Shown here piece by piece: positions 864-19,074 of a stretch of DNA of 64,000 nucleotides. The stretch comes from Emcibacter sp. (GTDB taxonomy: Bacteria; Pseudomonadota; Alphaproteobacteria; Sphingomonadales; Emcibacteraceae), in the NCBI GenBank assembly GCA_021774785.1, contig JAJFIQ010000019.1:496001-560000 (forward strand), given 5' to 3'. The notes beneath the pieces were generated by a model, which saw nothing but the letters and a program-made list of their open reading frames with translations, ran no database searches and was not told the DNA's origin. Within the stretch, counting starts at the first letter, position 1, and the number at the start of each line of letters is the position of its first letter. The translations under genes were made by a program, and so were the position numbers.

Positions 864-2849
864 ATGTTTTCAAAAATTTTGATTGCCAACCGTGGTGAAA
901 TTGCCTGTCGTGTGATAAAGACAGCGCGGAAAATGGGCATTAAAACCGTAGCCGTCTATTCCGATGCAGACGCTGATGCCCTGCATGTTTTAATGGCCGA
1001 TGAAAAGGTTCATATTGGACCTGCACCGGCGGCGGAAAGTTACCTGATTGCCGATAAGATCATTGATGCAGCCAAGAAAACCGGGGCAGAAGCCATTCAT
1101 CCGGGGTATGGTTTTCTATCTGAAAATGCTACCTTTTGTGAAAAGCTTAAAGCCGAGGGCATAGCCTTTATTGGGCCAGAAGTAAAAGCCATTGGGGTTA
1201 TGGGTGATAAAATTGAATCCAAAAAATTTGCCGCAAAAGCAGGGGTGAATACGGTTCCGGGCAGTACAGAAATTATCACAAGCCCCGACCATGCTGTAAA
1301 GATTTCCGGTAAAATCGGTTATCCCGTGATGATTAAGGCCTCTGCGGGGGGTGGAGGTAAGGGTATGCGCGTTGCTTATACTGACACAGAAGCCGCCGAG
1401 GGCTTTACATCAGCCACGAATGAAGCCATATCCAGCTTTGGTGATGATCGGGTTTTTATTGAGAAATTTATTGAAGAGCCGCGCCATATAGAAATACAGA
1501 TATTGGGGGATGCTCATGGCAATGTTATTTATCTGGGCGAGCGTGAATGTTCCATCCAGCGTCGACATCAAAAGGTTATTGAAGAGGCACCAAGCCCGTT
1601 CCTTGATAAAGCAACCCGCAAAAGCATGGGTGAACAGTCCGTAGCCTTATCCAAAGAGGTGGATTATCAATCAGCCGGAACTGTTGAGTTTATCGTAGAT
1701 AAAAATCGGAATTTCTTTTTTTTAGAGATGAATACAAGGCTTCAGGTGGAGCATCCGGTGACGGAATTGATCACCGGCGTTGATCTGGTGGAACAGATGA
1801 TCCGTGTGGCATACGGTGAAAAGCTGACTTTAGCGCAAGATGATATCAAGCTCAACGGATGGGCCATGGAAACGCGGGTTTATGCCGAAGACCCCTTGCG
1901 CGGTTTTCTGCCGTCCATCGGTCGTGTTGTGAAATACTCGCCGCCGGAAGAAAGTGACAATGTGCGGGTTGATACCGGCATTTATGAGGGCTCCGAAATC
2001 AGCATGTATTATGACCCGATGATCGCCAAGCTGATTACTTATGGTGAGAGCAGGGATCAGGCCATTCAGCATATGAGACAGGCTCTTGACCGCTATTACA
2101 TTAGGGGTCTGTGCCATAATATCGCTTTCCTTGCTGATGTATTGAACAGTAAACGTTTTCAGTCCGGCAATATTACCACCAATTACATAGCCGAAGAATA
2201 TCCCGATGGCTTTAACGGTGGTGCGCTGACCGATGAAACGAAAAAGGTCATGATTGCCGTGGCCCAAACGGTTCATTCCTTTGAAATGGGTCGACAGGCT
2301 CATATATCTGATAAAATGAATCAGGATGCGCCAGATTACAAGGATACCTGGGTCATTACCATTGATGGTGAAAATTATAAGTCATCATTCTTTGCAACCG
2401 AGGATGGATGCGCGGTTCTATGCAATGATGAAACGCATACTATTTTAAGTGAATGGCTGCCCGGAAACCCATTTTTTGAAGCTAATGTCAACGGCAACGA
2501 TGTTTGTGTAGAAGTTGATAAATTACTTGATGGTTATCTTCTAACCTATAATGGTGTCTCAGAAAAAATTTGTATACGCACCCCCCGGGAGGCTGAGTTA
2601 GCAAGCCTTATGCCGGAAAAAATGCCACCTGATATGTCTGCCTTCCTGTTATGTCCCATGCCGGGTCTTATTGTGTCCATAGATGTGGCAGAGGGCGACG
2701 AGGTCAAGGCAGGGCAGACACTTTGCGTAGTGGAAGCCATGAAAATGGAAAATATACTGCGGGCTGAAAAAGACACCGTAATCAAAAAAGTCTCAGCCAA
2801 GGCCGGTGACAGTCTTGCGGTCGACGAAATGATCATCGAATTTGAATGA
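864..2849 (+). CDS. pccA: Propionyl-CoA carboxylase alpha subunit (biotin carboxylase + BCCP)
   Basis: This 661-residue protein carboxylates its own biotin with ATP and bicarbonate and hands CO2 to PccB. Residues 1 to about 450 are the biotin carboxylase with the ATP-grasp glycine-rich loop KASAGGGGKGMR and the [14 protein letters not shown] signature. A middle BT domain of about 120 residues docks the beta subunit. The C-terminal biotinyl domain carries EAMKMEN, with Lys627 as the biotin site. This single-chain layout is that of PccA/MccA, not of the short AccC; a separate accC lies at 25016-26359. PccB directly upstream supports a propionyl-CoA role. The stop codon overlaps the next start in an ATGA, indicating translational coupling. 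Confidence 0.95.
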   Translation: MFSKILIANRGEIACRVIKTARKMGIKTVAVYSDADADALHVLMADEKVHIGPAPAAESYLIADKIIDAAKKTGAEAIHPGYGFLSENATFCEKLKAEGIAFIGPEVKAIGVMGDKIESKKFAAKAGVNTVPGSTEIITSPDHAVKISGKIGYPVMIKASAGGGGKGMRVAYTDTEAAEGFTSATNEAISSFGDDRVFIEKFIEEPRHIEIQILGDAHGNVIYLGERECSIQRRHQKVIEEAPSPFLDKATRKSMGEQSVALSKEVDYQSAGTVEFIVDKNRNFFFLEMNTRLQVEHPVTELITGVDLVEQMIRVAYGEKLTLAQDDIKLNGWAMETRVYAEDPLRGFLPSIGRVVKYSPPEESDNVRVDTGIYEGSEISMYYDPMIAKLITYGESRDQAIQHMRQALDRYYIRGLCHNIAFLADVLNSKRFQSGNITTNYIAEEYPDGFNGGALTDETKKVMIAVAQTVHSFEMGRQAHISDKMNQDAPDYKDTWVITIDGENYKSSFFATEDGCAVLCNDETHTILSEWLPGNPFFEANVNGNDVCVEVDKLLDGYLLTYNGVSEKICIRTPREAELASLMPEKMPPDMSAFLLCPMPGLIVSIDVAEGDEVKAGQTLCVVEAMKMENILRAEKDTVIKKVSAKAGDSLAVDEMIIEFE

Positions 2850-3160
2850 GCTTGGAAAAAGGTCATAAGGCCGTCAGGCTTATCATATCGGGTCGGGTGC
2901 AGGGCGTTTGGTACCGGGGTTGGGCCGTGGACCAAGCGGATGCCCTTGGGCTTGATGGCTGGGTTCGCAATCGTGCAGATGGCACAGTGGAAGCCTTGAT
3001 TGTCGGGCTGGTAGCCCATGTGGATCAAATGATTAAACAATGCTGGAATGGCCCACGCATGGCAAATGTAAGCGATATTGTGGTAGAGAGCGCCATGGGT
3101 ATTACGCCAAAAGGCTTCACCCAAAAGCCAACGGTTGATATTGAAAAGCGGCGAACTTAA
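2846..3160 (+). CDS. acyP: Acylphosphatase
   Basis: This small cytosolic enzyme of 104 residues hydrolyses carboxyl-phosphate bonds such as acetyl or carbamoyl phosphate. The family signature is clear: SGRVQGVWYRGW supplies the phosphate loop and catalytic Arg24, and GWVRNRADGTVEA supplies catalytic Asn42. The length matches the family (about 90-100). It begins inside the pccA stop codon (ATGA), so it is translationally coupled to a biotin carboxylase. Biotin carboxylases make carboxyphosphate, which is itself an acyl phosphate, so a housekeeping link is conceivable, but that is inference. Its last four bases overlap the stop of a gene on the opposite strand. Confidence 0.93.
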   Translation: MSLEKGHKAVRLIISGRVQGVWYRGWAVDQADALGLDGWVRNRADGTVEALIVGLVAHVDQMIKQCWNGPRMANVSDIVVESAMGITPKGFTQKPTVDIEKRRT

Positions 3161-15892: not shown

Positions 15893-15968
15893 GGGCCCGT
15901 AGCTCAGCTGGTAGAGCAACTGACTTTTAATCAGTAGGTCACAGGTTCGAACCCTGTCGGGCTCACCA
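15893..15968 (+). tRNA. tRNA-Lys(TTT)
   Basis: The acceptor stem pairs GGGCCCG with CGGGCTC, with one G-U pair and encoded CCA. The anticodon arm ACTGA-CTTTTAA-TCAGT gives anticodon TTT (codons AAA/AAG). D arm AGCTCAGCTGGTAGAGC and T arm CAGGTTCGAACCCTG are intact. An intrinsic terminator follows at 15981. Confidence 0.97.
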
Positions 15969-16081: not shown

Positions 16082-16157
16082 GGGCCCGTAGCTCAGTTGG
16101 TAGAGCAGCTGACTCTTAATCAGCTTGTCACAGGTTCGAACCCTGTCGGGCTCACCA
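16082..16157 (+). tRNA. tRNA-Lys(CTT)
   Basis: Acceptor, D and T arms are nearly identical to the copy at 15893. The anticodon arm differs: GCTGA-CTCTTAA-TCAGC gives anticodon CTT for AAG codons. CCA is encoded. The convergent thioesterase gene ends eight bases downstream, and no terminator is visible in that gap. Confidence 0.97.
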
Positions 16158-16165
16158 CAATAAGA

Positions 16166-16555
16166 TCAATCACATTTTATCTTTTTCGGCCGATGATTTT
16201 CATCCAGTGCGACAAAAACAAAATCACCCTCTGTTACCTTGATTTCATTGTCGTGACCACGACGCAGGACGGTGACCTCAATATGCAGGGTGATGGATGT
16301 GGTACCGACCTTCACTATATCGGCATAGACGCTGAGCCAGTCACCGGGCAGGACAGGCTGATGGAAATTCAGGCCTTCAATGGCAACTGTTGCCACCGGA
16401 CCATCACAATAACGAATGGCCTCGCCGCCGCCAGCAAGATCCATTTGGGATAATATCCAGCCACCGAAAATATGCCCGTTGGCATTAAGGTCTGCATGCA
16501 TGGGAACAGTTCTCACCGCGGGTTGACGGTCATTGTATTTTTTAACGTTACTCAT
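16166..16555 (-). CDS. Acyl-CoA thioesterase, YciA-like hotdog fold
   Basis: This 129-residue single-hotdog enzyme hydrolyses acyl-CoA thioesters. The family motif NANGHIFGGWILSQMDLAGG, with its catalytic Asp, lies near residue 26-45. The C-terminal strands contain DWLSVYADIVKVGTTSITLHI, followed by a GDFVFVALDE segment. It fits the YciA/acyl-CoA hydrolase group of broad specificity. It is on the strand opposite the tRNAs and lies 24 bp downstream of the S24 repressor gene, so the two may be cotranscribed. Confidence 0.91.
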   Translation of the reverse strand: MSNVKKYNDRQPAVRTVPMHADLNANGHIFGGWILSQMDLAGGGEAIRYCDGPVATVAIEGLNFHQPVLPGDWLSVYADIVKVGTTSITLHIEVTVLRRGHDNEIKVTEGDFVFVALDENHRPKKIKCD

Positions 16556-16579: not shown

Positions 16580-17275
16580 TTATATATTTCTACCCATCCA
16601 GATAACCCGCCCCAGAATATCCAGATCACTGGGCTGGCAACCGTCCCAGCTTTCATAAAATTTATTGTCGCTTTTGATGGTGCATAATTTTGTGACCGGA
16701 TTTAGGGAAATTCGCTTAACTAGAATCATATCGTCATTCCTCAAAACATATATGCCATCATTTTTAAGGGACGTCAGGGTCATATCTACCAGAATATGGT
16801 CACCGTCATATAATGTGGGGTTCATTGAATCACCAGATACAGTAATGACGGCCAAATCATCTGCCGTAGCGTTGGAGCTGCTTCTGATCCAGCTTTTCTT
16901 AAAAGCCAGTTTATTGGCAATATCATTATTTTCCACAACTGAACCAGCGCCAGCAGCGGCCTCAATATCATAAACATTGACCCGGATATATTCCGCCTCA
17001 AATTCTGTTTCCATAATTTCGGAATGATCCAGTCCGGGATTGGGAAAATCATCTGGAGAGCCAAAATAATCAATGGAAATATTGAAATGGGCGGTGATTT
17101 TTTCCATATCATCGTCCCGTAGGCATTTCGGTACGCCGCGCTTGATGAATTGCTGCATATAGGCATGATTTCTGCCGATTAATGCCGATACTGACGCATA
17201 ATCATCGCGAGAACTGGTACGGATGAGGTGGTCAAGCTTTTGTCTCAGCCTTGTATAGTATTTATTATAGTCCAT
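16580..17275 (-). CDS. LexA/CI-like transcriptional repressor with S24 peptidase domain
   Basis: This 231-residue regulator has an N-terminal helix-turn-helix region (VSALIGRNHAYMQQFIKRGV, residues 29-48) and a C-terminal S24 LexA-type domain. The catalytic serine is Ser150 in GDSMNPTL and the lysine is Lys187 in VKRI; their 37-residue spacing equals that of LexA. Candidate Ala-Gly cleavage sites lie in EAAAGAGS near residues 109-111. Such proteins self-cleave when RecA is active, but many alphaproteobacterial members sit outside prophages and regulate unknown targets. No phage gene is near. Two copies of a composite repeat flank and cover its start codon, suggesting autoregulation. Confidence 0.9.
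   Translation of the reverse strand: MDYNKYYTRLRQKLDHLIRTSSRDDYASVSALIGRNHAYMQQFIKRGVPKCLRDDDMEKITAHFNISIDYFGSPDDFPNPGLDHSEIMETEFEAEYIRVNVYDIEAAAGAGSVVENNDIANKLAFKKSWIRSSSNATADDLAVITVSGDSMNPTLYDGDHILVDMTLTSLKNDGIYVLRNDDMILVKRISLNPVTKLCTIKSDNKFYESWDGCQPSDLDILGRVIWMGRNI
17254..17273 (-). promoter_or_regulatory. Composite repeat overlapping S24 repressor start (site 2)
   Basis: Read on the minus strand this is GGACTATA, four bases, ATACTATA. It begins one base into the start codon's ATG and encodes the first residues (MDYNKYY). It matches the upstream site at 17308-17325 in inverted orientation. Confidence 0.45.
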
Positions 17276-17307
17276 TTTTTGTCCAAAAATATCTCAAAAA
17301 TAAAATA

Positions 17308-17325
17308 GGACTATATCATACTATA
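17308..17325 (+). promoter_or_regulatory. Composite repeat upstream of S24 repressor (site 1)
   Basis: Plus-strand GGACTATA, two bases, ATACTATA, followed by a further overlapping ACTATA. It lies 33 bp upstream of the repressor start codon and mirrors site 2, so the two form a large inverted repeat around the start. An operator role is inferred. Confidence 0.45.
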
Positions 17326-17331
17326 CTATAC

Positions 17332-19074
17332 CTAGACAAGGGATGTTGGTTCTTGCTGGATATATTTTTCAGCATCCTCAAAGGAAAGAGGTTTAGAGAA
17401 CAAAAACCCCTGTCCTGTTTGGCAACCTAATTTTTTTAGGGCCACAACCTGATCTTTGATTTCTATTCCTTCTGCCACCACATTCATGCCAAGTGTTTGG
17501 GCCAGTGTTGATATGATATGAATGATTTTATAGCTGTCTTCCGTCGCGCTCATTTTATTGACAAAACTTTTATCAATTTTGAGAATATCGACGGGAAATT
17601 GATTTAAATAACTTAAGGAAGAATATCCGGTTCCAAAGTCATCAATGGCTAAACCAATATCAAGGGATTTAAGGTCCAGCAATATATCACGCACAACTTC
17701 GGCGTTTTCAATGAGTGTGGTTTCTGTAATTTCGAGAGCCAACTGGTTACCGTCTAACCCTGCATTTAGTAATGCCTCTTGGGTTGTCGAAACAAAACTA
17801 TCTTCTAACAGCTGCTGACCCGAAACATTTACATTCATCACCAAGTTTGAACTATTAGGATATTTTGTCATCCACGTGTGGAGACTCTTGCAAGCTTCCC
17901 TTAGAACCCAGTTGCCCAAGGGAACTATTAAACCGCTTTCTTCGGAAAGAGGTATGAATTCAAGAGGTGAAATAGAACCTAATGTGGGGTGGTTCCATCG
18001 ACAGAGAGCTTCAAAGCCTAACAATTCACCATTTTGCAGACTTATGATTGGTTGATAATTTAGGCACAAGTCCTTATTACGCAAGGCATCACGCAGATTA
18101 TTTTCCAGTTTTAATCTTGAATTGGCCCGGGTTTGCAATTCCGGTTGATAGACGAGCGTCCTGTCCCGGCTTGTGATATTTAATCGTTGCATGGCGATAT
18201 GGGCATGCTGAATAAGTTTACTACTATCGGTTATGGGGGTACAACCAATTGCAATACCAATGGTGAGTGACAGGTAAATTTCCTGTTTTTCGGTGAGAAT
18301 AGGTTTTGTCATGTCGTGATGTAATAAATTAGCCAGGGCTACTGCTTCATTTTGCATTATCCCTACGTCGTCATCAAAAAGCAAAATGGCGAATTTATCA
18401 CCATCAAAACGGGCTAATATAGCATTTTTTGGCAGCAGAGCTTCTAACTTATACGCGACCATTTGGATAATATTATCACCAAGTTCATAGCCAAAACTTT
18501 CGTTTATGCGTTGAAACTTTTGAATATTGATCAATAAGATAGCTACTTCCCCACAGGAAAAATTTTTTGAAAAGTCTGAGTCTAGCTTTTCATTAAAGAA
18601 ATTTTGATTGGGTAGCCCTGTTAGTCTGTCAAAATAATTAAATCTACTAATTTGATCGGCAAAGGCGGTATCTGCACTATTATTTGAGAGAATAACGGTG
18701 ATTGAAGAAGGTTTTTCTTTCTGGTCGAATGTGGGGACAATACTGGCATTAATTGAATGGGAAGATCTTTGGCCAGTGAAACACCAGTTAATTACCTGTG
18801 TTTCTTTATTTGAAAGGCATTGACTAATTGCATTCCATAGCTGTCCATCGTCATTCCATATCTTATTTTCATGCAGGTTAATGCCGTATAATTCTTTCTT
18901 TTTCAGCCCCGTCAGGTGCAGAAATTCTTCACCAACTTCTGAAACTTTGACTGTTTGTTCATCTGAAATGGTAAGTATAATAATGCCGTAATGATGGGTA
19001 ATACTGTAAGATTCAGGCAGATATTTCGGGGTCGAATTTCGAAATAAAAAAGGAACACTATTGATACGCAACAT
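17332..19074 (-). CDS. GGDEF/EAL cyclic-di-GMP protein with degenerate GGDEF
   Basis: This 580-residue cytosolic protein has a PAS-like N-terminal region (about 25-130), a GGDEF domain (about 145-310) and an EAL domain (about 325-575). The GGDEF active-site loop reads DGDKF at 224-228, so cyclase activity is probably lost; such domains often bind GTP and regulate. The EAL domain keeps its key residues: EAL at 355-357, NVNVSGQQ, EITETT, DDFGTGYSS, KIDKSF, AEGIE and GQGFLFSKP, so c-di-GMP hydrolysis is expected. No membrane segment or signal peptide is evident. It ends 56 bp before the S24 repressor on the same strand. A GC hairpin lies just upstream of its start. Confidence 0.93.
   Translation of the reverse strand: MLRINSVPFLFRNSTPKYLPESYSITHHYGIIILTISDEQTVKVSEVGEEFLHLTGLKKKELYGINLHENKIWNDDGQLWNAISQCLSNKETQVINWCFTGQRSSHSINASIVPTFDQKEKPSSITVILSNNSADTAFADQISRFNYFDRLTGLPNQNFFNEKLDSDFSKNFSCGEVAILLINIQKFQRINESFGYELGDNIIQMVAYKLEALLPKNAILARFDGDKFAILLFDDDVGIMQNEAVALANLLHHDMTKPILTEKQEIYLSLTIGIAIGCTPITDSSKLIQHAHIAMQRLNITSRDRTLVYQPELQTRANSRLKLENNLRDALRNKDLCLNYQPIISLQNGELLGFEALCRWNHPTLGSISPLEFIPLSEESGLIVPLGNWVLREACKSLHTWMTKYPNSSNLVMNVNVSGQQLLEDSFVSTTQEALLNAGLDGNQLALEITETTLIENAEVVRDILLDLKSLDIGLAIDDFGTGYSSLSYLNQFPVDILKIDKSFVNKMSATEDSYKIIHIISTLAQTLGMNVVAEGIEIKDQVVALKKLGCQTGQGFLFSKPLSFEDAEKYIQQEPTSLV

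Follow-up and report, generated by a model that had tools for sequence, protein, structure and literature searches.

A stretch of 64,000 nucleotides (nt) from an Emcibacter sp. genome (contig JAJFIQ010000019.1; hereafter the window) carries a gene for a LexA/CI-like repressor of the S24 family, and two inverted composite repeats lie around its start codon. The upstream repeat probably overlaps an autoregulatory promoter/operator of this chromosomal, phage-repressor-like gene, and the repeat over the start codon is, on the same reading, no operator. That is, the two repeats are most likely not of equal standing: the first coincides with a conserved promoter/operator, and the second is a by-product of coding.

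The repeats themselves, reported in a preliminary description of the window, are exactly where that description had placed them and share 16 fixed bases. The upstream copy reads GGACTATA-N2-ATACTATA on the plus strand. The other reads GGACTATA-N4-ATACTATA on the minus strand (17273-17254) and does overlap the start codon (ATG, 17275-17273, minus strand), its first base being the G of the ATG. With a spacer of N2-4 the composite pattern matches twice in the window and not once in 100 dinucleotide shuffles, a chance test that weighs both copies equally although one is protein-coding. Widening the spacer to N0-8 returns the same two matches and no others in the 3,503,381-base assembly (reversed-pattern control, 0), and the genome-wide search that had been proposed as a check yielded no further copies; the pair is unique in 3.5 Mb. 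The extra ACTATA said to overlap the upstream copy is present at 17325-17330, though in the window only: none of the 14 other loci of the family has it within 110 nt.

Features of the window around the S24 gene (positions are those of the 64,000-nt stretch).
Feature	Position	Strand	Remarks
Upstream composite repeat, GGACTATA-N2-ATACTATA	17308..17325	+	same bases as an operator half and the -10 region, on the opposite strand
Putative operator core, palindrome ATAG-TC-CTAT	17305..17314	-	shared by 14 of the 15 family loci, counting the window
Sigma-70-type promoter	17310..17339	-	-35 TTGTCT (17339-17334), 18-nt spacer, extended -10 TGA-TATAGT (17318-17310)
S24-family repressor gene	16580..17275	-	231 amino acids; Pfam PF00717, invariant residues, predicted fold
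Domains of the S24 protein	residues about 4-75 (helix-turn-helix-like fold); 101-225 (S24 domain)		predicted fold and Pfam
Composite repeat over the start codon	17254..17273	-	judged a coding coincidence of MDYNKYY
YciA-like 4HBT acyl-CoA thioesterase gene	16166..16555	-	scores under the YciA model's curated cut-off; starts 24 nt downstream of the S24 stop
GGDEF-EAL gene	17332..19074	-	upstream, same strand; stop codon overlaps the -35 box

The evidence for the upstream copy comes from the comparison of 15 loci of the family, the window included. In 14 of them (the window again among these) ATAGTCCTAT lies within 110 nt upstream of the S24 start, and such conservation is as expected for autoregulation. 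The proposal of an autoregulatory operator pair thus keeps its upstream member, which overlaps this element, and loses the one at the start codon. In the window the gene-strand sequence is TTGTCTAGG...TGATATAGTCCTAT. Across the loci with the element, the beginning of TAGTCCTAT lies 28-72 nt ahead of the MDYN start. Of these 14 loci, 13 have TGN before the -10; the spacer to a TTG-type -35 is 18 nt long in 11 and 16 nt in one. The coding region therefore does not fix the position of the element, which keeps its geometry at varying distances from the start. Moreover, TATAGTCC (the same half as GGACTATA) is kept upstream in 13 of the 15 loci, and CCTAT follows the -10 in all 14 with the element, completing the palindrome ATAG-TC-CTAT. 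From the alignment, the conserved part of the upstream repeat is this core and not the whole composite. In the assembly ATAGTCCTAT occurs three times, the other two copies falling within open reading frames (ORFs). As a separate observation, the whole-genome count (G000) sets these 3 copies against 44 for the reversed, uncomplemented control, a difference to which avoidance of TAG-containing words may contribute.

The gene that precedes the element is not fixed. It is an EAL gene in nine of the 14 loci, NrdJ in four and a contig end in one, and the element is kept in all four loci with NrdJ. This swap matters because the stop codon of the EAL gene in the window overlaps the -35 box. Beside this, we note that the GGDEF-EAL gene ends in codons (CTT GTC TAG; 17332-17339) that double as the -35 region of the next promoter, and that the same letters persist in two loci with NrdJ upstream (L004 and L006).

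A conserved block of this kind could also be a promoter and nothing else, that is, an unusual extended -10 promoter whose S24 product regulates elsewhere. TTGTCT-N18-TGA-TATAGT does fit the sigma-70 rules, and the frequent TGN agrees with it. A promoter scan also reports TTGTCT-N18-TATAGT with TG before the -10, as one of 8 promoter-like sites in the stretch scanned (shuffled mean 4.1), a result that by itself proves nothing. We nevertheless consider this explanation unlikely, given the invariable CCTAT downstream of the -10, the related half-sites that recur upstream of the S24 genes of another family of the order (f6, which named Sphingomonas and Sphingobium plasmid matches suggest to be Sphingomonadaceae), and the lack of any conserved site elsewhere at one mismatch or fewer. 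We know of no promoter rule that requires CCTAT in that position.

The copy over the start codon behaves differently. It encodes MDYN(K/R)YY in most orthologs, and across 14 loci it shows 0-4 mismatches of 16, the window being the only locus with none; 7 of the 15 loci retain its GGACTATA half. The preliminary description had allowed that orthologs keeping the protein while losing the repeats would speak against it, and for this copy such orthologs are found. At two-fold degenerate residues, 175 of 388 comparisons in codons 2-7 show a synonymous change (0.45); for the remaining codons the figure is 1784 of 5151 (0.35). Of the 48 comparable six-codon windows, 46 change as little as codons 2-7 or less (13 rows, with the near-duplicate L011 dropped; the pairs are non-independent). 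With the codon usage of six ORFs of the window, the peptide would be encoded by exactly these 16 fixed bases with a probability of about 0.03. In addition, the ATG itself breaks the distal half of the palindrome, turning CCTAT into CCAT. Because of this synonymous drift, the codon-usage probability and the broken half, the start-codon copy is unsupported as an operator; judged from the sequences, it is most likely a chance product of encoding MDYNKYY.

The alternative would be a repressor that occupies the two copies alike, with the start-codon site serving to block elongation or to form a loop with the upstream one. The exact 16-base agreement of the copies, unique in the assembly, speaks for such an arrangement, and over the 16 bases the start-codon copy varies no more among orthologs than the upstream one. 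We rate it as quite improbable, since codons 2-7 drift at least as much as the other codons, the distal half is lost, the GGACTATA half is so often missing and the codon-usage probability stands where it does. A weak half-site role for the start-codon copy may still apply.

Several observations weigh against reading the upstream repeat as part of a conserved autoregulatory site. Over its full 16 fixed bases it shows 0-6 mismatches in orthologs, compared with 0-4 for the start-codon copy, and the latter differs by a single base in 6 of the 13 orthologs outside the window. Two loci (L015 and L016) are without a clear TTG -35. One ortholog (L017, 57% identical) keeps the protein with no site within 110 nt and no thioesterase seen adjoining the S24 gene. 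Some of the conservation may reflect the promoter alone, as the core overlaps the -10, and half-site spacing differs between the window's family and family f6. Finally, the congeners are related, so that 14 of 15 loci are not 14 independent observations.

The identity of the protein as a LexA/CI-like repressor, already proposed in the preliminary description, is supported by its S24 domain, its catalytic-type residues and its predicted fold. The PF00717 profile matches at E 1.5e-17 (63.8 bits, cut-off 23.3), and a phage repressor profile spans residues 29-230. Residues A108, G109, S150 and K187 are invariant in all 16 aligned sequences, and in a wider alignment of 38 sequences that includes viral relatives G109, S150 and K187 remain invariant and A108 is found at 90% or more. 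By alignment, A108-G109 is placed at the scissile bond of LexA/CI and S150/K187 would form the catalytic dyad, so that these are residues of the cleavage type. The AlphaFold2 model (38 sequences) has a mean predicted local distance difference test score (pLDDT) of 85, falling below 50 at residues 110-113, and a predicted template modelling score (pTM) of 0.57. Its C-terminal domain resembles LexA and CI structures, RecA-bound forms included, at Z about 14. Residues 4-75 resemble helix-turn-helix (HTH) regulators at Z 8.4-9.4, a similarity which, according to the tool's own warning, may reflect a common helical arrangement and is weak alone; at E 0.001 no Pfam HTH domain was matched in the protein.

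Two other identities were considered. The protein is not the genome's LexA. It is absent from the NCBIfam matches to the LexA equivalog profile TIGR00498 at E 0.001, and the sole match to that profile in the genome, above its cut-off, is another gene (C10:282-938), the canonical LexA. In a tree of 61 rows the four LexA rows, which were taken from relatives, form a branch of their own (support 100/100), and the S24 rows group with proteins of viral contigs. Nor does it reach the curated cut-off for regulators of the ECH_1013 type (NF048000), scoring 53.7 bits against 300. In the same tree the window's family, with eight rows, is a single clade (99/95); of the 17 rows from viral contigs, 6 are nested among family f6. 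The best annotated phage matches are the c repressors of Pseudomonas phages, at 31% identity over 88% of the protein. The statement that the gene has no phage context holds for its immediate neighbours (about 12-23 kb), the range that the survey covered, where there are no phage genes.

If the upstream repeat marks an autoregulatory site, RNA polymerase would use TTGTCT-N18-TATAGT with its extended -10, and the repressor would bind ATAG-TC-CTAT over the -10 and perhaps also TAGG beside the -35. The bound repressor would limit its own synthesis together with that of a co-transcribed acyl-CoA thioesterase. Relief would come from a trigger, for which cleavage at A108-G109 by the S150/K187 dyad, stimulated by RecA, is the most likely candidate. 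We infer that the S24 protein is the ligand, that its binding means repression, that the two genes share a transcript and that cleavage depends on RecA.

The thioesterase gene follows on the same strand downstream of the S24 gene in 14 of the 15 family loci. If its start is set at the candidate furthest upstream, it overlaps the S24 gene or starts at most 41 nt after it in 12 of 13 loci (75 nt in L015; no start was found for L016 and L017). Gene order and spacing suggest that the two genes are likely co-transcribed; because the order is conserved and the gap short, the predicted output of the operator is an S24-thioesterase operon. Two tRNA-Lys genes (anticodons TTT and CTT, at 15893-15968 and 16082-16157) converge with the thioesterase gene. 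The cyclic di-GMP (c-di-GMP) gene of the neighbourhood, GGDEF-EAL, had been put forward as a possible target and was rejected. It lies upstream on the same strand, its end at 17332 coincides with the beginning of the promoter, and NrdJ takes its place in 4 of the 14 operator loci; position and gene order thus make it an unlikely target.

Further targets were sought at two levels of stringency, with the printed ORFs judged by eye. Searching 19 genomes with ATAGTCCTAT gave no site common to orthologous promoters, and searching 10 congeners with TGN-TATAGTCCTAT at one mismatch or fewer gave no conserved second target. The latter search produced 25 matches, namely the 10 S24 promoters, one exact match within an ORF and 14 with one mismatch; since the reversed-pattern control produced 87, there is no enrichment beyond the S24 promoters. 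Three of the 14 one-mismatch matches fall in one gene, which we take to be guanylate kinase. Three others lie upstream of ORFs, each in one genome only: L285 at 27 nt (G015), L288 at 12 nt (G006) and L284 just upstream (G009). The ORF downstream of L285 is presumably TonB-receptor-like and that downstream of L288 DnaG-like, and L285 and L288 are possible species-specific extra targets.

The regulator is widespread in the order. At E <= 1e-30, 243 of the 297 genomes sampled from the order and 37 of the 387 from the class have at least one member, and some have two or three; these counts are of members at that threshold and not all are proven orthologs. Among the matches listed, none at that threshold came from the 12 genomes of genus g5, which belongs to the window's own family. 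In family f6 the S24 genes have promoters of the type TCCTA-CTTGTC-TAGGAAAAATCCTA upstream. Across 48 f6 loci, GTCTAGG is present in 43 (shuffled mean 0.3), CCTA-N6-TAGG in 36 (shuffled mean 0.07) and TTGTCTAGG in 30; this sample is hand-chosen (39 regions and 9 further loci, some genomes appearing twice) and the shuffles are of mononucleotides. In a set of 60 genomes, CCTACTTGTCTAGG occurs once in each of 10, every time just upstream of an S24-type gene (six placed by coordinates, three by the ORFs shown and L170 by both), and was not found in the other 50, the window genome included. The word TAGGA-N4-TCCTA gave 11 sites in 9 of 16 hand-chosen genomes; by coordinates, eight lie upstream of S24 genes and the other three elsewhere. 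With 21 sites from the reversed control, it shows no genome-wide enrichment. As far as these patterns tell, the regulator looks close to having a single operator at the stringency searched.

The f6 loci have further features of their own. A small divergent ORF with the pattern IExFLR..TxFGR..DPRxVxDLRxGR stands back to back with the S24 gene in 47 of the 48 (L125-L164 without L163, L026 and L087-L094 being the loci concerned). The one member scanned had no PHROG match. Beside this gene, many f6 loci have a third ORF with an S(I/A)TFxGxRH-like stretch (in L155 at about 2680-3004, plus strand, with equivalents in the others). Between the divergent ORF and the S24 gene, GTTC-N7-GTTC or its complement is found in 17 of the 48 loci (shuffled mean 0.2), and according to PMC12700426 this is the LexA motif of Caulobacter. 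No LexA-type box lies within 300 nt upstream of the S24 gene in any of the 15 loci of the window's family.

The small divergent protein bears on one more explanation, that the conserved block is the site of some other DNA-binding protein, for example a regulator of the thioesterase operon. Identification of the ligand is by inference, and f6 does encode a second small protein divergently from the S24 gene. We hold this to be very improbable. The small protein, sought in 19 genomes, was found in three, which are the three f6 genomes of that set, and in none of 11 genomes of family f1, 9 of which have the block (G018 is without the block, and G019 without an S24 member at E <= 1e-30). Moreover, the full site stands at the S24 gene in 10 congeners, and the one other exact match is within an ORF.

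An autoregulatory S24 repressor of this kind can be set beside a few known systems. The nearest published case that we found, likened by its description, is FddR of Francisella. PMC13148647 presents FddR as a chromosomal S24 repressor of the phage type whose binding site is a palindrome in the promoter of its own gene, and whose network is very small. What the two would have in common is the S24 phage-repressor type outside a predicted prophage, the Ala-Gly bond, the Ser-Lys dyad, a very small network and the palindrome in the promoter of the gene itself, which in the window's family is conserved in 14 of 15 loci. Unlike FddR as described there, the regulator of the window has the putative site ATAG-TC-CTAT, a canonical LexA in the same genome and a predicted downstream thioesterase partner; homologs of FddR are reported there to be absent outside the genus Francisella. 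The non-canonical LexA-like repressors of Bacteroidetes are likewise S24 and phage-like, with cleavage features conserved and a motif at their own genes, according to PMC8565304. Those repressors run an SOS regulon, whereas no regulon was found for the S24 gene of the window at the stringency searched. The window's protein appears to share the architecture of an HTH-like and an S24 domain with the CI repressors of lambda and 186 and with the c repressors of Pseudomonas phages (e.g. MP22), but its gene is chromosomal, its family forms one clade and no phage genes directly adjoin it. With canonical LexA it has the S24 domain and fold in common; it differs in being a separate gene of the same genome on a separate branch of the tree. 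Among the matches listed from the open-access literature there is no publication on a sphingomonad or Emcibacter S24 gene or its site.

If the autoregulatory reading is true, a regulator family found in most of the genomes sampled from the order (243 of 297) would gain a predicted operator and a predicted minimal regulon, and it would be another phage-type repressor retained by the cell, here beside LexA. It would also show that a start codon is able to mimic an operator. A wider proposal, conceivable and rather unlikely, is that Emcibacter- and sphingomonad-type bacteria have, beside canonical LexA, a second core switch that senses damage or stress throughout the order. It would be a phage repressor, now domesticated, for which each genome has essentially a single operator. 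In one family it would be wired to a thioesterase; in sphingomonad-type genomes its gene stands back to back with a small FGR-type gene, and a LexA-type box lies between the two in about a third of the loci. The LexA and S24 circuits would then be nested.
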